Positions 28,698 through 38,390 of a stretch of DNA of 64,000 bases are shown piece by piece (within the stretch, counting starts at the first letter, position 1; every line of letters starts with the position of its first letter). The stretch covers positions 1,178,001 through 1,242,000 of the forward strand of contig CP030887.1 of NCBI GenBank assembly GCA_006969905.1, given 5' to 3'. The stretch is from Balneolaceae bacterium. Lineage in GTDB: Bacteria; Bacteroidota; Rhodothermia; Balneolales; Balneolaceae. The translations under genes were made by a program, and so were the position numbers. The notes under the pieces are model-generated. The model did no database searches and had not been told where the DNA came from. It was given only the letters and a program-made list of their open reading frames with translations.

Positions 28698-29486
28698 TTA
28701 GCTGTTCTTTTTAGCAATGATAAGCGGGTTTTGTTTATTAGGATGAGAGATGATATCCAGGGGATAATCAAAGGCAAAGCTCATTGTTTCTGTAGTAAAT
28801 ACTTCTTCAACAGAACCCTGCTGAACGGTTTTTCCATCTTTAAGTAAATGAATACAATCGGAGTATTGTGCAGCCAGGTTCAAATCATGAATTACAATCA
28901 GAACCCCAGTATTTTTTTTACAAAGTTCTTGCAAAAAACTTAGCATTTCGTGTTGATGTGCTACATCGAGGCTAGCTAAGGGTTCGTCTAAAAGCAAATA
29001 AGAAGGCTCTTCCTGTTCTATTCGGCCCCAGATCTGAGCCAGTGCACGCGCAAACTGAACACGTTGCTGCTCCCCACCGGAAAGGGTGATATAGGATTGA
29101 TCTATGAGGTGCAAGGCATCAGCTTTTTCCAGGCTGTTTTTGATGATATCTTCATCCCTTTTTGTAAGAAGCACATTAAAGTAAGGAGAACGGCCAATAC
29201 CCACCATTTCCCGAACGCTGAAGTTGAATTCCATGGATACTTTCTGACTTACAACAGCTCTTATTTTCGCGAGTTCATTAAGATTGTAATCCTGAATAGG
29301 TTTGTTATCCAGTGTTACTTCACCGGAGTGAGCGAGGTCATTACAAATAGCTTTAATAACGGATGATTTTCCTGCCCCGTTTTTACCAATTACAGCAGTA
29401 AGAATGCCCGGTTCGATGGAAATAGAAACCTGGTCAACAATTTTTCTCTTCGTTACTTGTACACTTATATTGTTTGCCCGGATCAT
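28698..29486 (-). CDS. hmuV: Haemin ABC transporter ATP-binding protein
   Basis: 262 aa from ATG at 29486, chosen because it overlaps the permease stop by 4 bp (ATGA) and gives the family N-terminus MIRANNISVQ. Walker A GKNGAGKSS near residue 34, Q-loop VSQKV, signature LSGGEQQRVQFARA, Walker B YLLLDEPLASLD and the H-loop VIHDLNLAA. Powers import of haem through HmuU using ATP. Last gene of the hmuS-T-U-V unit. Confidence 0.93.
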   Translation of the reverse strand: MIRANNISVQVTKRKIVDQVSISIEPGILTAVIGKNGAGKSSVIKAICNDLAHSGEVTLDNKPIQDYNLNELAKIRAVVSQKVSMEFNFSVREMVGIGRSPYFNVLLTKRDEDIIKNSLEKADALHLIDQSYITLSGGEQQRVQFARALAQIWGRIEQEEPSYLLLDEPLASLDVAHQHEMLSFLQELCKKNTGVLIVIHDLNLAAQYSDCIHLLKDGKTVQQGSVEEVFTTETMSFAFDYPLDIISHPNKQNPLIIAKKNS

Positions 29487-30550
29487 ATCGGATGTATTTG
29501 CGCACGATTTCTCATTAACAACCACAGAAAAAACGGAGCGCCTATGGCCGATGTGACTATCCCAATGGGAAGTTCAGCGGGAATAATAGCCATTCGTGCA
29601 AAAAGATCTGATCCCAAAAGAAGTAAAGCACCCAGCAGAATAGAAGCGGGCATAAGAAAACGATGATCGGAACCTATAATCAATCGCAATAGATGCGGCA
29701 CTACAAGCCCTATGAATCCTATGATTCCGCTGGTAGCTACTGCTGCGCCTACACCTAATGCAGCTAGTACAATTACTAATCGCTTAACGAACTCAGTATT
29801 GACACCTAAGTAGCGGGCTTCATTTTCCCCTAATAACATAGCATTTAGTTTTTTGGCAAGCATGGGAAGAATCAGAATACAAGTGAGCAGAAAGGGCGTT
29901 GATGTAAAAACGGTATCCCATACTGATCCGCCAAGGCTACCAAGTGTCCAGAAAGTGAGGTCTCTTATTTGGGCATCAGTTGCAGTAAAGATCAGGAAGC
30001 CAATACCTGCTGCGGCCATAGCATTAATTGCTATACCTGCCAGCAACATAGTGGAAACATTGGTTCTTCCTCTTTTTGAAGATATGATATATACTAAGTA
30101 CGTAGATACCAATCCTCCAAGAAAAGCAGCTATAAAAAGTAATTTTGTTTGGATAAAATCTGGAAGAAATTTATTCAATTCTTCTGCAAAAATGATAACT
30201 GCTGCTGCAAATAGTGCAGCTCCACTAGATACTCCTATCAAAGTTGGATCTGCTAAAGGGTTTCGAAAAAGCCCTTGTAAAGAAGCTCCTGAAACTGAAA
30301 GTGCGGCGCCAACCAGGATTGCCATTATAACACGGGGCAGGCGGATGTTAAATACTATTGCACTTGATTGCACCAGCTCATCTTCTGCAAGATTGATGAC
30401 CCCGAGCTTTGCAGCTATTACTTTAAGTACAGAAGAAATTTCTATAGAAACCGGACCAATACCGATTGAAAGAACAGAGAATACAACCAACCCTGCAAAT
30501 AGGGCTATTATAGTTATATAATGCTTTTTATATGCATCAAGTTGAAGCAA
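29483..30550 (-). CDS. hmuU: FecCD-family haemin permease
   Basis: 355 aa with 9-10 membrane segments. FecCD features include GAALSVSGASLQGLFRNPLADP, GVSSGAALFAA, and the coupling helix region GIIGFIGLVVPHLLRLIIG, which contacts the ATPase. The frame is preceded by an in-frame stop, so translation must begin at TTG 30550 or an internal codon. 15 nt after hmuT. Confidence 0.93.
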   Translation of the reverse strand: MLQLDAYKKHYITIIALFAGLVVFSVLSIGIGPVSIEISSVLKVIAAKLGVINLAEDELVQSSAIVFNIRLPRVIMAILVGAALSVSGASLQGLFRNPLADPTLIGVSSGAALFAAAVIIFAEELNKFLPDFIQTKLLFIAAFLGGLVSTYLVYIISSKRGRTNVSTMLLAGIAINAMAAAGIGFLIFTATDAQIRDLTFWTLGSLGGSVWDTVFTSTPFLLTCILILPMLAKKLNAMLLGENEARYLGVNTEFVKRLVIVLAALGVGAAVATSGIIGFIGLVVPHLLRLIIGSDHRFLMPASILLGALLLLGSDLFARMAIIPAELPIGIVTSAIGAPFFLWLLMRNRAQIHPI

Positions 30551-30565
30551 CTAACCAAACCAAAA

Positions 30566-31474
30566 TTAGTAATCAGATTGAATAGAGATAGATAATTCGG
30601 GATGCAAAGCTTTCATTAAATCCAGGACTGCTGATCCCAATCTGGGACCAAAGCCCAACAAATAATTTCCATCAAATGAAAGAATTTGATCTTTTCGAAC
30701 AGCAGTAGTTTGATTTACTCCGGGTGTACGTTCCACACCTGCTTTGATCTCATCATGCCGATTCTCCATTACTAGAATGTAATCCGGATTAGCTGCCAGA
30801 ATAGATTCATTAGAAACAGTTTTATAACCTTCGAATGAATTAAAAGCATTCTTACCCCCCGCAAGATTTATCATTTGTTCTGCCCCGGTATTAGTGCCGG
30901 CCACCATAAAACTACTGCTCCCTCTTACTGCCAGGATAAACAATACTGTAGGTTTTTGAATGAGGCTATTCCGTAAATCGCTGGCCTTAGCTAATTGGCT
31001 TACATTCTCATTAATCAGTTCATCTGCTTTAGCTTCTGCATCCAAGGCTTCACCAATTGCAGCTATTTTCTTAGTAGCACTTTCTACGCTTTTTTCTTCA
31101 TCGACAAGAAGGAGGCTGGTACCGGCTCCACGGATTTGTTGAAGTGCAGATTTAGGAGAGGCTTCATCACTGGCAATAATGAGAGTAGGTGTTAAAGCAA
31201 GAATTCCTTCCGATGTAATGGTTCGCACATAAGGCACTCTTTCGAGAGAAAATACCTGCCTTGGAAAAGTACTTGATTGGTCAGTAGCGATAACCTGTTC
31301 CCCAAAGCCAAGTGCAAATACAGTTTCCGTGATCGATCCTCCAATCGTAATGATCCGAGAAGTATTATCAATTGTAACCTCTACACCATCCGAACTTAAA
31401 ACAGTTTTTTGAGCAAGGGCCGATTGAAGGGGGGTGAATAGTAAGAAAGTGATAACAAGTATTACTGTTCTCAT
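30566..31474 (-). CDS. hmuT: Haemin-binding periplasmic protein
   Basis: 302 aa with an N-terminal signal peptide ending around ALAQ. Class III binding-protein layout: RIITIGGSITETVFALGFGEQVIATDQSST, VPYVRTITSEGILALTPTLIIAS, and a second lobe with GTNTGAEQMINLAGGKNAFN and the GFGPRLGSAVLDLMKALHP end. These match ShuT/HmuT haem-binding proteins. Captures haem in the periplasm for HmuUV. Its start codon overlaps the hmuS stop by 4 bp (ATGA). Confidence 0.9.
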   Translation of the reverse strand: MRTVILVITFLLFTPLQSALAQKTVLSSDGVEVTIDNTSRIITIGGSITETVFALGFGEQVIATDQSSTFPRQVFSLERVPYVRTITSEGILALTPTLIIASDEASPKSALQQIRGAGTSLLLVDEEKSVESATKKIAAIGEALDAEAKADELINENVSQLAKASDLRNSLIQKPTVLFILAVRGSSSFMVAGTNTGAEQMINLAGGKNAFNSFEGYKTVSNESILAANPDYILVMENRHDEIKAGVERTPGVNQTTAVRKDQILSFDGNYLLGFGPRLGSAVLDLMKALHPELSISIQSDY

Positions 31475-32517
31475 ACTGCAACACTTTCTGATCTGAGTTC
31501 ACTCATAAGGTCTTTCCAACTTTCCAGTTCCGGTATGCCCGGTTTCCTGACACCAAAAAAAGTGACAATATTATTATTGTCTTTGTCAAAAATTTCTAAA
31601 GAGGTAACAATACCATCCTCAGTAGGCTTTTCCACTATCCACGATTGTGCGATATGATCTTCTCTCAGGTGAAGGTTAAATTCAGGATCCAGCACATTTA
31701 ACCAGTTATCCATTTTTTTGATCTTACTCACTTTCCCAGAGTGAATTTGAATTACTCCTCCGCTTGAAACAAAAACCATAACCGGCACTTCATTTTCAGA
31801 AGCCTTTAAGAGCATCAACTCTGTTGTAGAATTATCAACCTTATAAGAAAAACGACCTTCCGCAATTTTTAAAGCACGCGTTCGGTCTACTTTGAATTTT
31901 TTAAGAAGTGGATAAAAATCATGAGTATCCTTCAATTCTGCCCATTCATTAAGAAAGGAGTTCTCATTCACTTCCGGTGAAACTTCGTAATCGCCAGTCC
32001 GTTCGGCGGTTTCTATTTTAAGCAGAGAGTTTTGGTCAGGATGCTTAAACTTTGAAATCAGGGCATTATATGCAGGCAGCTTGTCTTCGTTCATAAGATA
32101 GATTTTATGAATAGCCGTACCATATTTGTCAAAAAACTGTACGCTGTAAAGTGTACCACGAGAATTTTTTACCGGTACTGCGAAGGCAAAACCAAATTTC
32201 CCGGGAAAAATTCTAAGATCGATATCCGGGTCCAGAACTAAACCAACATGTTTGTTGAAACTGATATTATGGTATTCACCTTTTCGTTCGTGAACTACAG
32301 ATTCATTCCGGGTAAGTGCCATTACATAGCCAAGTTGCTCAACTTCTGAGAATAGCCCCGACCAGTCTTCTTGTAAACGAATCGCATCTTTTTGAGTGGA
32401 AACAAGCTCGGCTTCGCTTACATCCAGGCGATCTGCGGCATCTTTGATTCTTAATTTCGGGAATTGTTCTTTAAGCGCATCCCATGCTTTTTTGAGTGAG
32501 GTTTTTGAAGGGTTCAA
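31471..32517 (-). CDS. hmuS: Haemin-degrading / haem-handling factor (HemS/HmuS family)
   Basis: 348 aa cytoplasmic protein of two repeated halves: residues about 30-165 (GYVMALTRNESVVHERKGEY, FPGKFGFAFAVPV, SVQFFDKYGTAIHKIYL) and about 200-345 (LLKASENEVPVMVFVSSGGVIQIHSGKVSKIK, DPEFNLHLREDHIAQSWIVEKPTEDG, SLEIFDKDNNNIVTFFG). This matches ChuS/HemS/HmuS, which store or degrade haem. It starts with TTG at 32517, preceded 18 bp upstream by a 17-bp palindrome and overlapped by a larger hairpin. First gene of the hmuSTUV unit. Confidence 0.88.
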   Translation of the reverse strand: MNPSKTSLKKAWDALKEQFPKLRIKDAADRLDVSEAELVSTQKDAIRLQEDWSGLFSEVEQLGYVMALTRNESVVHERKGEYHNISFNKHVGLVLDPDIDLRIFPGKFGFAFAVPVKNSRGTLYSVQFFDKYGTAIHKIYLMNEDKLPAYNALISKFKHPDQNSLLKIETAERTGDYEVSPEVNENSFLNEWAELKDTHDFYPLLKKFKVDRTRALKIAEGRFSYKVDNSTTELMLLKASENEVPVMVFVSSGGVIQIHSGKVSKIKKMDNWLNVLDPEFNLHLREDHIAQSWIVEKPTEDGIVTSLEIFDKDNNNIVTFFGVRKPGIPELESWKDLMSELRSESVAV

Positions 32518-32570
32518 TGGAGAAAAAATTTATTATTTAGAATAATTCTAAATTAAAAACTTTTTCTCCA
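32518..32570 (-). promoter_or_regulatory. Nested inverted repeats at the hmuS start
   Basis: TGGAGAAAAA at 32518-32527 is the exact complement of TTTTTCTCCA at 32561-32570, enclosing the TTTAGAATAATTCTAAA operator. The outer stem abuts the hmuS TTG start codon and would place the ribosome-binding region in a hairpin of the mRNA. It may add translational control or simply be part of a larger protein-binding site. Confidence 0.4.
32536..32552. promoter_or_regulatory. Haem/iron operator upstream of hmuS
   Basis: TTTAGAATAATTCTAAA is a perfect palindrome, readable as 8-1-8 or as TTTAGAA-nnn-TTCTAAA. It lies 18 bp before the hmuS start. A second site with the same half-sites is placed the same way before hmuR. 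The motif has the Fur-superfamily form and resembles the alphaproteobacterial Irr box. The regulator is not in this window. Confidence 0.6.
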
Positions 32571-32571
32571 T

Positions 32572-32603
32572 AAAAAAAACCCGTTTTTTCACAAACGGGT
32601 TTT
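32572..32603 (-). terminator. Terminator of the hmuRY transcript
   Basis: AAAACCCGTTT (32576-32586) pairs with AAACGGGTTTT (32593-32603), an 11-bp stem with a 6-nt loop. On the minus strand it is followed by eight U. It lies 48 nt after the hmuY stop and separates hmuRY from hmuSTUV, so the two units need separate promoters. Confidence 0.85.
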
Positions 32604-32650
32604 ACGAGTAAACTAACTAATAAACCGTATTTGATACGAGTTATTACTTT

Positions 32651-33718
32651 CTATTCGAAAAATCTGGAGCCATCAGCTTGGATAGCATATTCAAAAGTAT
32701 AGTACCTGGAAGCCGAACGAGTATCCGGATTAATGAACTCTTGAGAAGTTACATCAGGATTTCCTTGATAGTAACTGACAATTCGTACTTTCGCATATTC
32801 GTCGTCTGCGGTTTTAAAGACAAGAGTGATTCCTTCAATAGGAAGGATTGCAAAAACCGGTACATTATTTGCGGTGTATGTGTACCAGGTTTTATTAGTT
32901 CCTACATATCCTTCAATAGGAGCTTCTGTAACTGCAGAAAAGTCAATATTTAGTGCCTGTAGCCCACCTCCATTTTCAATATTACCAAAAATCGAAGTTC
33001 CTTGAAGGCCAATATCCCACTGTGAAGATGAAGCGTCTTCAATGATTTCTCCTGTAGTGAAATCAAAATATGTAATAGTATCTTCGTGGAATAGCTTAGT
33101 GCTCCCATCATTTTGAATAGTATAGTTAAATGTAAAATACTTAGAACTTGGGCGAGTCATAAAGCTGGCAAATTCAGGGGTACTGGTATCGGGGTTGCCC
33201 TCATAGTAGCTAAGAATTTGAACTTTTGCGTATTTTCCATCCGGTTTTTTTACTACCAAAGTTTCATTTTCATTAGCTAAAACAGCATGCTTTGGTCCGT
33301 TAGGCGCTTCTCCCGTGTAGGTATACCAAGTATTGTTACTTGCTTCAAAACCGGTTTCAGGTGCGGTTTCTACATCAGCATATGGCGTTTGAAGTAACTG
33401 GATACCACCCCCGTTTCCTGAATTTGCGAGAATGGTAGTTCCTCCAAAAGCAATATCCCAATCCGAAGAAAGTGAATCTGAGATAGTAGAACCCGTTTCT
33501 AGATCGTAGAAAGTATATCCTGGTGAAGATTCTGTATCTCCCTCAACATCTTTATCTGGTTCAGCAGGCGCAAATATAGTATTTACATTTGCAGCTATAT
33601 CAGAAGCAATTTTTGCTTCTACTGCAGCAGGGCCATCATTTCCGGAATCACTACATGCTGTAAAAATAAAAAGTGTAGTCGCAAAAAGCAGTGGTATATT
33701 TACTCTTTTTGTTTTCAT
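32651..33718 (-). CDS. hmuY: HmuY-like haem-binding lipoprotein with two tandem domains
   Basis: 355 aa. Lipobox FTAC with Cys22, a short linker, then two copies of an HmuY-like domain, about residues 67-210 and 214-355. Matching elements in order: YTFYDLETGSTI / ITYFDFTTGEII, SSDWDIAFGGTTI / SSQWDIGLQGTSI, NGGGIQLL / NGGGLQAL, TWYTYT / TWYTYT, KYAKVQILSYYEGNPD / EYAKVRIVSYYQGNPD, KYFTFNYTIQNDGS / RYYTFEYAIQADGS. Known HmuY proteins have one domain and capture haem at the cell surface for HmuR. Directly downstream of the receptor gene (15 nt). Which residues would bind iron in this divergent version is not clear. Confidence 0.82.
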   Translation of the reverse strand: MKTKRVNIPLLFATTLFIFTACSDSGNDGPAAVEAKIASDIAANVNTIFAPAEPDKDVEGDTESSPGYTFYDLETGSTISDSLSSDWDIAFGGTTILANSGNGGGIQLLQTPYADVETAPETGFEASNNTWYTYTGEAPNGPKHAVLANENETLVVKKPDGKYAKVQILSYYEGNPDTSTPEFASFMTRPSSKYFTFNYTIQNDGSTKLFHEDTITYFDFTTGEIIEDASSSQWDIGLQGTSIFGNIENGGGLQALNIDFSAVTEAPIEGYVGTNKTWYTYTANNVPVFAILPIEGITLVFKTADDEYAKVRIVSYYQGNPDVTSQEFINPDTRSASRYYTFEYAIQADGSRFFE

Positions 33719-33733
33719 GATATGAATAGTTTG

Positions 33734-36046
33734 TTAGTGAAGTTTTATGTTTAATTGAGTGTAAAATGTTAAGCCGGGATTCGATGGCAGGAACTGGGCA
33801 TCCTGGAAGTTTGAAATATTATCCACGCCGAACATCCATCGGATTTTTTTCCCAAATGTTTTAGCAACTGAAAAATTCAGGATGGTTTTATCAAAAGCTT
33901 CTTCAACATTATTTGCTTTGAAGACATATTCATTCCGGTCAATACGTTCGTTTCCATTAAAATCGATACCAAACCGTCCACGAAAAATGGCTCTGAAACT
34001 GGTTTCCAGGTCAATTTTTTCAATGAAGTAAAAAAGTTTCAGGTTCGCATTATGTTTGGATCTGTTTGGGAGCACTCCATATTCAGTTCGGTTTCTGGAA
34101 ACAACCACACCGTTTATTACTTCATCGAATGGAACCTTGAATTCCTGTCTCGCATCTAAAAACTGGTATCCAACACCCACCCTGAGTCCAGGAATTTTTT
34201 CGGGGGTTAACTGAAGCACTGATTCAAAGCCTTGCGTATAGACTTGATCTAGATTAAAGTATGAGAATACAGATTGGGCATTGGTTTTTAAAGCGATTTG
34301 TTGCCAGTCAATCATATTCTGCACATTATTCCGGAAGAAGTTTATTTTAAACTGAAGTGAATTAGTCGGGAACAAATCAAACCCGGCATTATAGGAGAAA
34401 GACCTTTCTGCATTAATGTCAGTTACATTGTTTGGAGATATAAGTACTGAATCTATTCTTCCGCTTTCCTGAAGCTGCTGCATTCCTTCTATTACTGTAG
34501 AAGTTCCAAAAACAGTATAGCCAACTGTTGCATTGGTAAAGTTCAGAAACAATTGGTTAAAAGCAGGAGCTTTAAAGCCCCTGCCAACCGAAGCGCGGAA
34601 ATGAATTTTGTTATTAGGTTTAAAAAGAGTAGAAAATTTAGGACTGAACTGTGAACTGTACTCGCTGTGATTATCAAATCGAAATCCTCCTGTAAATGAA
34701 AGTTTTTCAGACACCTTCCATTCATGCTGTCCAAATAAAAAATAACTTGTAAAAGTGGGAACATCTGCATAATTATCAGAAATCAGGTCTTCCTGAGTTA
34801 AGCCTACACCACTTACAGAGGTATGTTCATCAGACCAAAAAGTGGAGCTTTTAAATTCTATTCTGGTTAGAGCTTGATCGAACTCTCCTGAAAAAAAGTC
34901 TTCTTGTGTCTCGTTATTAATCTCATTGCTTTCGCTTAAAAACCGGCTGGTAAAGCCGATTAACTCAAATAACTGCTTGTTTCCTAATGTGTAAGTAATT
35001 TCCGGGCTGAAGCTGTAATCTTTTTGGGATTGATCTCCACTGATAGTTATACTTTGTTGGCTAGTCGTGGCCTCAGCCAAGTAACTCAGGTCTTCCTGAA
35101 AGTATCTGCCATTTAATCTGACGATCATGCGATCAGAAGCACGATAGTTAAGGCCCCCGGAAAATGTATAATTATGAAACTCAGGCACAGTTGGTGCCAA
35201 ACTCTCTTCATCCAGGTCATAACCATCTGACCCATTTATATTGGCAAAGAAACGTCCATTGATACGATTTTTTTTAAATGTAATATTTGAACTGCCATCA
35301 AAGCTGTTATTTGTTCCATAGCGGGAGTTAATATCCCATTGAAAAGGATCACTACCCTTATCAGTAATAATATTAATAACCCCAGCAAGCGCGTCACTAC
35401 CCCATAAAGCCGAAGAAGGGCCTTTTACGATTTCAATTTGTTCAACATTACCGATAGCAAGCCTTGTTAAATCCAGTGTGCCCGCAGAGCGGCCAATTAC
35501 CGGTTGATTGTCTATCATGATTAATGTGTATTCAGGATCAAAGCCCTGCACTTGTATCCCTGTACCATGATCAGAAACAATATTCATACCAATTTGCTCA
35601 CTGAGTATATCACTAAGCCGCATGCTACCTGATAATTCAATTTCTTCTTCATCAATTACCGAGACAGGTACACTGGTATCTTCAAGTTTTTTTTCTGTTC
35701 GTGATGCAGTTACAACTACCCGGTCATTGCCATAAATACGTTCCTGAAGAAATACTTCCAGATCCAGCTGGTTACTTTTTAATAAATCTACAGCAATTTT
35801 TTCGTCTCTAAACCCAATACGCGATACAGTCAATACATAAGAACCGGGCTCTAAATTTTTAATCACAAATGAACCATCAGAACCTGTAACGGCCCATTTT
35901 TTTGAGGAAAGATAAATATGTGCATCTTCAACAGGAGTACGGTCAGAGGAATATACCTTTCCCCCAATAGACAAAGTCTGGGCAGAGATGGCCGTACTAG
36001 TCACAAAAAAAATACTTCCAAGCAGGAAGTTTTTAATAAAAGCCAT
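33734..36046 (-). CDS. hmuR: TonB-dependent haem receptor
   Basis: 770 aa. Signal peptide (about 1-22), a CarboxypepD_reg-like domain (about 25-105), then the plug with VVVTASRTEKKLEDTSVPV, IMIDNQPVIGRSAGTLDL and the strong IEIVKGPSSALWGSDALAGVINII motif, then the barrel. Haem-receptor type FRAP-like region: GFRFDNHSEYSSQFSPK and FRASVGRGFKAPAFNQL, where canonical haem receptors often have FRAP/NPNL. Its function is supported mainly by the neighbours: HmuY 15 nt downstream and haem ABC genes after it. Transcription is probably controlled by the TTTAGAAccgTTCCAAA site 19 bp upstream. Confidence 0.87.
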   Translation of the reverse strand: MAFIKNFLLGSIFFVTSTAISAQTLSIGGKVYSSDRTPVEDAHIYLSSKKWAVTGSDGSFVIKNLEPGSYVLTVSRIGFRDEKIAVDLLKSNQLDLEVFLQERIYGNDRVVVTASRTEKKLEDTSVPVSVIDEEEIELSGSMRLSDILSEQIGMNIVSDHGTGIQVQGFDPEYTLIMIDNQPVIGRSAGTLDLTRLAIGNVEQIEIVKGPSSALWGSDALAGVINIITDKGSDPFQWDINSRYGTNNSFDGSSNITFKKNRINGRFFANINGSDGYDLDEESLAPTVPEFHNYTFSGGLNYRASDRMIVRLNGRYFQEDLSYLAEATTSQQSITISGDQSQKDYSFSPEITYTLGNKQLFELIGFTSRFLSESNEINNETQEDFFSGEFDQALTRIEFKSSTFWSDEHTSVSGVGLTQEDLISDNYADVPTFTSYFLFGQHEWKVSEKLSFTGGFRFDNHSEYSSQFSPKFSTLFKPNNKIHFRASVGRGFKAPAFNQLFLNFTNATVGYTVFGTSTVIEGMQQLQESGRIDSVLISPNNVTDINAERSFSYNAGFDLFPTNSLQFKINFFRNNVQNMIDWQQIALKTNAQSVFSYFNLDQVYTQGFESVLQLTPEKIPGLRVGVGYQFLDARQEFKVPFDEVINGVVVSRNRTEYGVLPNRSKHNANLKLFYFIEKIDLETSFRAIFRGRFGIDFNGNERIDRNEYVFKANNVEEAFDKTILNFSVAKTFGKKIRWMFGVDNISNFQDAQFLPSNPGLTFYTQLNIKLH

Positions 36047-36065
36047 TAGATTGATCTCTTCTCAA

Positions 36066-36082
36066 TTTAGAACCGTTCCAAA
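36066..36082. promoter_or_regulatory. Haem/iron operator upstream of hmuR
   Basis: TTTAGAACCGTTCCAAA matches TTTAGAA-nnn-TTCTAAA with one mismatch in the second half-site (TTCCAAA). It ends 19 bp upstream of the hmuR ATG, almost the same distance as the perfect copy before hmuS (18 bp). Two matching sites at equivalent positions in one functional locus support a shared regulator. Confidence 0.6.
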
Positions 36083-36137: not shown

Positions 36138-36419
36138 CTACTTAACTTCTACACCCTTCCAAAAAGCAACCCTGCCTTCAATAGGTTTGGCGGCCTGGGA
36201 GGTCTCCGGGTAATACCATGCGGCAGCTTCATTTACCTCTCCATCTACTTCAATTGAATAGTAGCTGGCAGTACCCTTCCAGGGGCAAACACTGGTTTGA
36301 GTACTTTCGATAAAATATTCTTCATTAAGGGATTCTTTTGGGAAGTAATGGTTCCCTTCTACTACAACAGTGTCATCGCTTTCAGCAATTATTTTTCCAT
36401 TCCATAATGCTTGTTTCAT
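36138..36419 (-). CDS. DUF427 domain protein
   Basis: 93 aa, a complete single DUF427 domain. WNGKIIAESDDTVVVEGNHYFP, then TSVCPWKGTASYYSI and AAWYYPE, the last two being the family signature. It has no known biochemical role. 43 nt downstream of the DUF423 gene and 91 nt ahead of hmuR. Probably the last gene of the operon that begins at 38390. Confidence 0.92.
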   Translation of the reverse strand: MKQALWNGKIIAESDDTVVVEGNHYFPKESLNEEYFIESTQTSVCPWKGTASYYSIEVDGEVNEAAAWYYPETSQAAKPIEGRVAFWKGVEVK

Positions 36420-36462
36420 AATGCTATAATTTTAGACCGGTAATAAATATATAAGTAGAGAA

Positions 36463-36843
36463 TTAATCCTTATTGAAAGAAATAAATTCCCAGGCAAATA
36501 AACCCCAGCCAACTATAAAAGCAACACCCCCAATGGGAGTTATGGCACCAAGCCAACTAATATTGGTAAGGCAGAGGGCGTATAAACTTCCTGAAAAAAT
36601 AAAAATCCCGGTAAAGAGAAGACGTGTAATCCATACCACATTAATTTGAAAGCTTGTTCCAGCCAAAACAACTGCAAGGATGCCCAAACTATTCCACATT
36701 TGATAGGATACAGCAGTTTCCCATGTTTGCAATCGTTGAGCGGTGAGAACATTTTCTAAAGCATGAGCGCCAAAAGCACCTAAGCCTATTCCGGTGGCAA
36801 GCAAAAACCCGGCAAGTGCAAGAGAACGTTTTTGCAAGTTCAT
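36463..36843 (-). CDS. DUF423 membrane protein
   Basis: 126 aa from ATG at 36843 (a GTG six codons upstream overlaps the previous gene). Four hydrophobic segments with the DUF423 pattern: LATGIGLGAFGAHAL near the N-terminus, TAVSYQMWNSLGILA, a GIFIFSGSLYALC segment and ITPIGGVAFIVGWG. Inner-membrane protein (YgdD-like family) of unknown function. 10 nt after the CDGSH gene. Confidence 0.92.
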   Translation of the reverse strand: MNLQKRSLALAGFLLATGIGLGAFGAHALENVLTAQRLQTWETAVSYQMWNSLGILAVVLAGTSFQINVVWITRLLFTGIFIFSGSLYALCLTNISWLGAITPIGGVAFIVGWGLFAWEFISFNKD

Positions 36844-36853
36844 TGTAATTGCT

Positions 36854-37510
36854 TTACTCACTTACAAAACCGGCTGCCCTGTGAGCTCCATCACAAAAAG
36901 GTTTATTGGCCGAGGCTCCACACCGGCAAAAGCTCATTTTCTTTTCTGTATTGAGGCATTGGTCACCACCATTCATTTCATACTTGCCTTCAACTACAAA
37001 AGGGGCATTTGGAAGAACGGTGATATGTAACTCTCCACCGGTTTCTTCGGTAGCTTCCAGCTCCAGCCTTTCCGGGTTATAATCCACGCCGCAAGTAAAT
37101 TCGCCTTTAATATGGGAATTGTCGCAATACGGTTTATTCTTTGACAGGCCGCACCGGCAGAAGGCGGCTCTGGTTTCTTTGGCGAGTATTTCACCGTTAT
37201 TGTCCTTTATTACCAGGTTCCCTTCAATATATACCGGGCCATTTTCCACCAGGGTCATTGTGTTTTTTGACGGAGCTGTTTCATTTTTTCCGCCATCTTT
37301 TCGCTGATACTGTAAAGCTCCCGTAGGGCAGCGTTTAATCACTTCCGCCACTTCATCAGCAGAGGATTTGCCGGGCTGAACCCACGGTTTATGAGAGATA
37401 TCAAAAACTTCAGGCAGCCCATGTACACATTCTTTGGCATGGATGCATTTTTTCTGATCCCAGCTTACTTCAATTTCATCACTATCGTAGGTAAATATTT
37501 TTGATTCCAT
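36854..37510 (-). CDS. CDGSH iron-sulfur protein with ferredoxin-like N-terminus
   Basis: 218 aa from ATG at 37510. The N-terminal Fer4_19-type module (Cys22, Cys28 and Cys61 in KKCIHAKECVHG and KRCPTGAL) is followed by two CDGSH [2Fe-2S] domains, each with a C-x-C-x8-C-x3-H set: Cys118/120/129-His133 (CRCGLSKNKPYCDNSH) and Cys195/197/206-His210 (CRCGASANKPFCDGAH). Three cluster-binding modules in one soluble protein suggest electron transfer or cluster storage. The partner is not encoded nearby. 7 nt after the outer-membrane protein gene. Confidence 0.9.
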   Translation of the reverse strand: MESKIFTYDSDEIEVSWDQKKCIHAKECVHGLPEVFDISHKPWVQPGKSSADEVAEVIKRCPTGALQYQRKDGGKNETAPSKNTMTLVENGPVYIEGNLVIKDNNGEILAKETRAAFCRCGLSKNKPYCDNSHIKGEFTCGVDYNPERLELEATEETGGELHITVLPNAPFVVEGKYEMNGGDQCLNTEKKMSFCRCGASANKPFCDGAHRAAGFVSE

Positions 37511-37517
37511 AATTGTT

Positions 37518-38390
37518 TTATAATTTAACGGCAAAACTTACAAACGGGAAAAACCCTTCAGCACCATCGGTGGTAAAAAAACCAAGATCAGCAGCAATTC
37601 GTTGCCCGATAAATCTACCCCCAAAAGAAATAAGCGGTTCTAAACCATCTGACTCGGTTGGGAATACAAAGTTTTCAGACAGCAAAGCAAATCTTTGCGA
37701 AACCCGTAGCTGTCCACCAACAATGAATACAGGATCAGTTGTTTCACCTTCGGCAGTGGCAACGCCAAGTCCGGCGGTAAGGTCAAGCTCTTTCCGGGTA
37801 TAAGTTGCAGCCCCAAATACTGAAGTGAATCCAAAATCTGAGTCAAACAAAGAGTAATAGGTAGCAGTACCCGAGACTGAAAAACTCTCATTAAGATTTA
37901 CCCCAACCTTTACCCCAATATTTTTTAGCTGATTTTCAAAACCAAGTTCAGGAATCATGCTTATTCCTCCGCTTACAGAGATATTTTTTGTAATACCATA
38001 AGAAATATTGGAAAAGAAGATGTAAGTATTTTGATAATAGCCTGATCTGGCTTCTAACATACGCCCGCTCTGTGTAATAAATAACTTATTTGATGCCGGG
38101 TTTTTGTACCAGCGGGTGGTCCTATCCGAAGGATCCACGATGGTAATTTCCTTAATACGATCATAATTGAAATTGAATAACCCGTCTTTGGTTTCCACAC
38201 CTACCGACTCGTCATCTACTGAAATAACTTTCCCGGAGAAGGTATTTCCGTTAACAAGCGTAATTCGAACCTCATCTCCGTTTTCAAGGGCATCCATCAG
38301 GATTACTTTGAATTCGGTAGTTTGAGCCGTTGCTGTAGCCGTAAAAAGGAAGCTCAGGCAGATAAATATGAATAACTTTCTGGGGTACAT
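37518..38390 (-). CDS. Outer-membrane beta-barrel protein with N-terminal LSm/SH3-like strand domain
   Basis: 290 aa from ATG at 38390, which starts the signal peptide MYPRKLFIFICLSFLFTATATAQ. Residues about 30-85 (VRITLVNGNTFSGKVISVDD, then TKDGLFNFNYDRIKEI) look like a small five-stranded barrel, as in ribosomal-binding LSm-like folds seen in secreted proteins. The rest is a repeated amphipathic beta-strand region ending FVSFAVKL. Function unknown. First gene of a four-gene minus-strand group (this, CDGSH, DUF423, DUF427). Confidence 0.7.
   Translation of the reverse strand: MYPRKLFIFICLSFLFTATATAQTTEFKVILMDALENGDEVRITLVNGNTFSGKVISVDDESVGVETKDGLFNFNYDRIKEITIVDPSDRTTRWYKNPASNKLFITQSGRMLEARSGYYQNTYIFFSNISYGITKNISVSGGISMIPELGFENQLKNIGVKVGVNLNESFSVSGTATYYSLFDSDFGFTSVFGAATYTRKELDLTAGLGVATAEGETTDPVFIVGGQLRVSQRFALLSENFVFPTESDGLEPLISFGGRFIGQRIAADLGFFTTDGAEGFFPFVSFAVKL

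Follow-up and report, generated by a model that had tools for sequence, protein, structure and literature searches.

What reads the palindrome that stands before each of the two haem transcription units of a Balneola genome? The window analysed here is a stretch of 64,000 nucleotides from a marine Balneolaceae bacterium (contig CP030887.1, positions 1,178,001 to 1,242,000 of the forward strand). It carries two haem units, one led by hmuS and the other by hmuR. A sequence-only reading of this stretch had proposed that both units share an operator, TTTAGAAnnnTTCyAAA, and that its likeness to the Irr box of alphaproteobacteria pointed to a haem-responsive regulator. To judge from their letters and placement, the hmu palindromes are genuine operators, a variant of the Fur-type iron box with letters of its own. 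They are probably operators of a general iron regulon, unusually spelled and read by the Fur orthologue of this bacterium, whose binding to DNA we infer. The two operators are located as follows.

32536..32552, minus strand: operator TTTAGAATTATTCTAAA before hmuS (reads TTTAGAATAATTCTAAA on the plus strand), a perfect 17-bp palindrome except for the central base
36066..36082, minus strand: operator TTTGGAACGGTTCTAAA before hmuR (reads TTTAGAACCGTTCCAAA on the plus strand), recognised by its matrix score and by equivalents in four relatives

Both 17-mers were found with exactly the letters and distances claimed for them. The edge of the hmuS operator lies 18 bp from the first base of the start codon (TTG at 32517), and that of the hmuR operator 19 bp (ATG at 36046). 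The argument that such a pair is unlikely by chance held for near-perfect copies and failed for looser ones. With up to two mismatches the pattern TTTAGAAnnnTTCyAAA had 5 matches in the window against 4.2 expected, and with one mismatch it had 31 matches in the whole genome against 29 for the reversed control. Because matches with one or two mismatches occur near chance level, only near-perfect copies count as evidence, and the claim leans on these copies together with position and conservation.

Sixty distinct sites went into a position matrix; almost all came from relatives, and the window's own sites were a small fraction of the training set. The two operators scored 24.6 and 18.0 bits and the third-best site in the 64 kb scored 9.0 bits, while the best site per simulated window (n=60) had a mean of 10.6 bits and a maximum of 21.4 bits. 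The 60 sites had been chosen by TTTAGA...TCTAAA; the hmuS and hmuR sites found independently of the motif agree with these letters. The consensus is wider than the one first proposed, TTTAGA-nTnAn-TCTAAA with A/T flanks. T at position 8 and A at position 10 are kept, although neither was among the searched letters. The flanks, likewise unsearched, are kept symmetrically, with A in 90% of sites just before the core and T in 80% just after it, followed by T/A-rich sequence; with the flanking TTA/TAA the operator spans 23 bp. Of the motif proposed earlier, the core TTTAGA-N5-TCTAAA thus stands and the A at the seventh base does not, since 35% of sites have A there and 42% have T. A promoter scan of the locus for the placement of -35 and -10 elements gave no more matches than shuffled sequences.

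Exact copies of TTTAGA-N5-TCTAAA occur four times in the complete 3.49-Mb Balneola genome, all of them 18 to 72 bp before iron or haem genes, namely those for a FecA-like receptor, HmuS, an FbpA-like iron-binding protein and a secreted CbiX-like protein. A near-exact copy precedes hmuR, and a weaker one lies upstream of a gene for an IscA-type iron-sulphur (Fe-S) protein. The FecA-like receptor site is accompanied by a one-mismatch second copy 49 bp away, and the same 49-bp double site is present in genome G016 before a receptor gene and hemG.

Placement in Balneolales was assessed with one sampled locus per genome, and the reversed pattern served as the control. Within 150 bp upstream of a gene lay 28 of 31 sites, versus 7 of 28 control matches (Fisher p=2.6e-7); 20 of the 28 control matches fell within genes. 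Pfam assigned the 71 downstream proteins mainly to FbpA-like solute-binding proteins (16), TonB Plug domains (16) and CbiX (5), and also to HemS, HemG-type oxidases, Rrf2 and transport permeases (three each), ferrochelatase and SufB; further downstream genes encode HemN, flavodoxin and an Fe-S protein. Operator-bearing genes in the relatives comprise fbpA (in many), fecA-type receptor genes, hmuS, hmuR, cbiX-like, iron-permease, hemG, hemH, hemN, sufB, flavodoxin and Rrf2 genes. The scan of the genome and its relatives that had been suggested therefore gave a gene list in which iron, haem and Fe-S functions predominate. By its predicted gene content, the operator set is a general iron regulon, wider than haem.

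Across 11 genomes of other Rhodothermia the search gave 20 sites and the control 3; most of the sites stand before genes of iron or Fe-S function, among them fbpA, fecA, iscS-type and hmuR genes. The 89 genomes outside the class showed no excess as a group, with 86 sites and 133 controls; individual sites there precede haem oxygenase-like, SufS, SufB, hemA-type and Rrf2 genes, named partly by sequence reading. These sequence comparisons show that the position, spacing and gene content of the operator are kept across Balneolales and, at fewer sites, in other Rhodothermia.

At the haem genes themselves, a protein search that made no use of the motif located hmuS homologues in 8 of 57 relatives, and the genomes that carry them belong to Balneola and Balneolaceae. 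TTTAGA-N5-TCTAAA stands close before hmuS in 5 of 9 genomes, the Balneola genome included (4 of the 8 relatives), and the spacer between TTTAG and CTAAA before hmuS is of 7 bases only. Five genomes have the operator before hmuR, namely the Balneola genome and four relatives (L161, L162, L132 and L135); in three of these four the left half reads TTTGGA, as in the window. The sequence-only reading was to fall if the motif were absent upstream of haem genes in relatives or frequent at random positions, and neither is the case: it is conserved there and its placement is non-random. A shared operator of the Fur-superfamily type, with predicted control of both haem units, is supported.

Fur-family paralogues were also to be sought in the genome, and two were found, the only Fur-family proteins encoded there. 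One of them is the candidate reader.

2,140,667-2,141,173, minus strand: Fur orthologue (PF01475, 100 bits)

A strong PF01475 copy is present in 56 of 58 relatives. Among the models compared, the best match of the Fur orthologue is a Fur model, at 83.7 bits, itself under the cut-off of 146. The protein keeps H37, E85, H91, H93 and E104 (PerR numbering) and four structural cysteines, with Glu where PerR has Asp85 and Asp104. Position 104 is Glu in 54 of 54 aligned orthologues, and the peroxide-sensing Asp104 is missing; because the aligned sequences were selected by the recognition helix, the frequency of Asn among them carries no independent weight. In a set not selected for Asn, all 32 Balneolales Fur orthologues read have the recognition helix SRATVYNTL, with the PerR-type Asn61, and Asn likewise follows Tyr in the helix of a wider Bacteroidota Fur set. 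In B. subtilis, Asn61 versus Arg61 sets the choice between PerR box and Fur box, and Asp104 versus Glu sets peroxide sensing (PMC8638851). With Asn61 and Fur-type sensor glutamates, the Fur orthologue therefore resembles an iron sensor whose DNA-reading head is of the PerR type, and it would read TTTAGA in place of TGATAAT probably because the helix SRATVYNTL holds Asn61. Such a reading head would fit the T-T-A outer half of the operator.

We propose that an Fe(II)-loaded dimer of the Fur orthologue would bind the operator over the promoter. In iron-rich cells Fur would repress genes of haem uptake, ferric-iron uptake, haem synthesis and Fe-S proteins, and loss of iron would release it from the operator.

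The second Fur-like protein was rejected as the reader: it is absent from two genomes (G004 and G007) that carry the hmuS operator. One genome, G079, has no operator site and its sole Fur-family protein is of another type, a single consistent example. In G145, G148 and G069 (L348, L349 and L351) the Fur orthologues have SRATLYNTI or SKATIYNTI and have lost the structural zinc cysteines.

Several observations weigh against Fur and its iron regulon as the explanation. Four of the nine hmuS homologues have no operator, some sites stand before genes without a clear iron role, and the fur gene has no good operator site nearby. Moreover, G029 (93% completeness) gave no Fur match and yet has sites before sufB and a receptor gene, where an assembly gap is possible.

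The alternative raised at the outset was an acquired, true Irr-like haem-responsive repressor that reads an Irr box. The Irr box, or iron control element (ICE), has the consensus TTTAGAAnnnTTCTAAA, and the strong resemblance to it was borne out, the hmuS site being letter-identical in the specified bases. The operator is also found before haem-synthesis genes, and TVYNTL, which we take to be common to the recognition helices of Irr and Balneola Fur, counts on the same side. However, the seventh base of the Balneola-type operator is unfixed, and the genome, with just two Fur-family proteins, has no Irr: the Irr models, with cut-offs of 170 and 150, scored 42.9 and 39.6 bits respectively. The Fur candidate retains all of the Fur metal site along with four cysteines, and it lacks the haem-regulatory Cys-Pro motif that some, though not all, Irr proteins have. 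Nor is the regulon one of haem alone; iron-uptake genes dominate it, and it covers FbpA, FecA-like receptors, Suf/IscA and haem synthesis. Irr is mostly a repressor at low iron, and its activity is lost with haem (PMC3413700, PMC7762939). Repression at low iron would be the wrong direction for iron-uptake genes unless Irr activated them. An Irr-like regulator is thus very unlikely here, and that part of the sequence-only reading did not survive.

A DtxR/MntR-like repressor might instead read the operator through a common TTTAG half-site.

442,589-443,248, minus strand: DtxR/MntR-like repressor

DtxR-family proteins occur in 30 of 32 relatives, the distance from dtxR to the fecA operators is about 9 kb in the Balneola genome, and dtxR promoters in other families of the order have TTTAG-N6-CTAAA palindromes, so that the TTTAG/CTAAA half-site is shared within the same genomes. 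These palindromes differ from the iron operator in a spacer one base shorter, 6 in place of 7, and stand before manganese/zinc-type genes and dtxR itself. In the Balneola genome 6-base palindromes precede a ZIP transporter gene and a TonB receptor gene converging on dtxR, although overall such palindromes are not enriched (14 against 17 controls). The DtxR-family protein scores best with the MntR model, the DtxR-family gene of family f4 heads an apparent Mn/Zn ABC transporter operon, and G046 has no DtxR-family match, yet an operator before fbpA. As judged from these comparisons, DtxR/MntR appears largely excluded as the reader and is a weak, unlikely rival. An Rrf2-family Fe-S regulator (RirA/IscR-like) would accord with operators found 50 to 90 bp before Rrf2 genes in L082, L150 and L158, as in autoregulation. 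It is extremely unlikely as the reader, given that G011 (98% complete) has operators before iron genes and no Rrf2 gene, and that Rrf2 matches in G001, G003 and G005 are sub-threshold only and coincide with DtxR-family genes, G001 and G003 also carrying operators before iron genes. The hmuS palindrome could also be part of an RNA hairpin acting on translation: it is the centre of a 55-bp near-palindrome (32517-32571) whose 27-nucleotide arms, 89% complementary, extend to the start codon. We give almost no credence to this, as the 17-bp core is kept in relatives and the outer arms are not, and the core is present before many unrelated iron genes. Rrf2 and the hairpin were both rejected on these grounds.

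The Fur-type iron operator that we prefer can be set beside known systems. The 19-bp Fur box is GATAATGATAATCATTATC (PMC7762939). Like the canonical Fur box (7-1-7, TGATAATnATTATCA), the Balneola operator is an odd-length palindrome close upstream of iron-uptake genes, and like the canonical Fur system it comes with a Fur that has the same metal ligands. It differs in its letters, TTTAGA versus TGATAA, and in its weakly specified central five bases; the 60-site matrix did not match the canonical letters. With Fur-type iron operators it has in common a position just upstream of iron-acquisition genes beyond chance, a conserved position and spacing, and a Fur with its sensing site in the genome.

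The PerR box is TTATAATnATTATAA. The Balneola operator resembles it in the TTA outer end of each half and in the T-rich/A-rich palindrome, which suit an Asn61-type helix, and differs in the fourth base of the 7-1-7 half, where it has G and the PerR box has T. Unlike a PerR system, it has no catalase or peroxidase among the downstream genes seen, and the sensor residue is Glu, not Asp. PerRA of Leptospira also has the Asn, and its self-regulatory boxes resemble Irr boxes (PMC8638967). PgFur/Har of Porphyromonas gingivalis is another Bacteroidota Fur homologue with Tyr-Asn among its predicted DNA-contact residues. It binds the hmu promoter and fails to bind the E. coli Fur box, and it differs from the Balneola protein in having no regulatory HxH metal site (PMC6613475, PMC4222909).

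Iron sensing by Bacteroidota is poorly known. The iron stimulon of three Bacteroidetes has been defined, and its authors hoped to aid the identification of iron-dependent regulatory systems (PMC10434189). A search of the openly accessible literature found no published Bacteroidota Fur operator, which does not prove absence. Tentatively, and with somewhat less than even confidence, we suggest that Bacteroidota Fur is a natural hybrid (Asn61 for reading, Glu104 for sensing) with the phylum's own operator, TTTAGA-N5-TCTAAA, converging on the Irr box; DtxR/MntR would share the TTTAG half-site, and a spacing of 7 versus 6 would separate the iron and manganese regulons. With the operator defined, the genes behind it listed and one specificity residue predicted, iron sensing in Bacteroidota can be tested directly. 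A match to the Irr box need not mean Irr, and the letters may be set by the residue that reads the DNA and not by the name of the protein family.

The gene identities given earlier for the two haem units were upheld by Pfam and NCBIfam, and the hmuS unit includes a complete ABC transporter of the haem type. A terminator-like stem lies between hmuY and the hmuS site.

31471..32517, minus strand: hmuS, HemS/ChuX haem-handling protein, leads hmuSTUV (Pfam HemS, 1.4e-76)
30566..31474, minus strand: hmuT, periplasmic haem-binding protein (Pfam Peripla_BP_2, 2.1e-34)
29483..30550, minus strand: hmuU, FecCD-type permease (Pfam FecCD, 1.2e-93)
28698..29525, minus strand: hmuV, haem ABC transporter ATPase (NCBIfam NF010068, 297.6 bits, cut-off 261)
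33734..36046, minus strand: hmuR, TonB-dependent receptor, leads hmuRY (Pfam Plug and TonB_dep_Rec_b-barrel)
32651..33718, minus strand: hmuY-like secreted haem-binding protein (Pfam HmuY, 7.4e-19, two stretches)
32576..32603, minus strand: terminator-like stem between hmuRY and hmuSTUV

With the NCBIfam TonB-hemin model hmuR reached 136 bits, under the cut-off of 317. The two HmuY stretches in the HmuY-like protein (32651-33718) suggest a tandem two-domain haem-binding protein. Directly upstream of hmuR, genes for a CDGSH/ferredoxin protein, a small membrane protein and a DUF427 protein stay in place in the window (36138-37534) and in L161, L162 and L132.

The TTTAG-N6-CTAAA palindromes of the Balneola genome lie at 440335, 1837871, 2033534 and 2278631, before genes for a TonB receptor next to dtxR, a ZIP transporter, a secreted protein and a MATE-like transporter, and may mark a manganese/zinc regulon of the DtxR/MntR protein. 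In distant Bacteroidota, proteins of about 106 to 130 amino acids have the operator close upstream (L132:1510-1827, L303, L285 and L286); the one of these four that was scanned with Pfam, at L132:1510-1827, gave no match. In L071, L072 and L077 two divergent genes flank the operator, one for an FbpB-type iron permease and the other for a small lipoprotein-like repeat protein.

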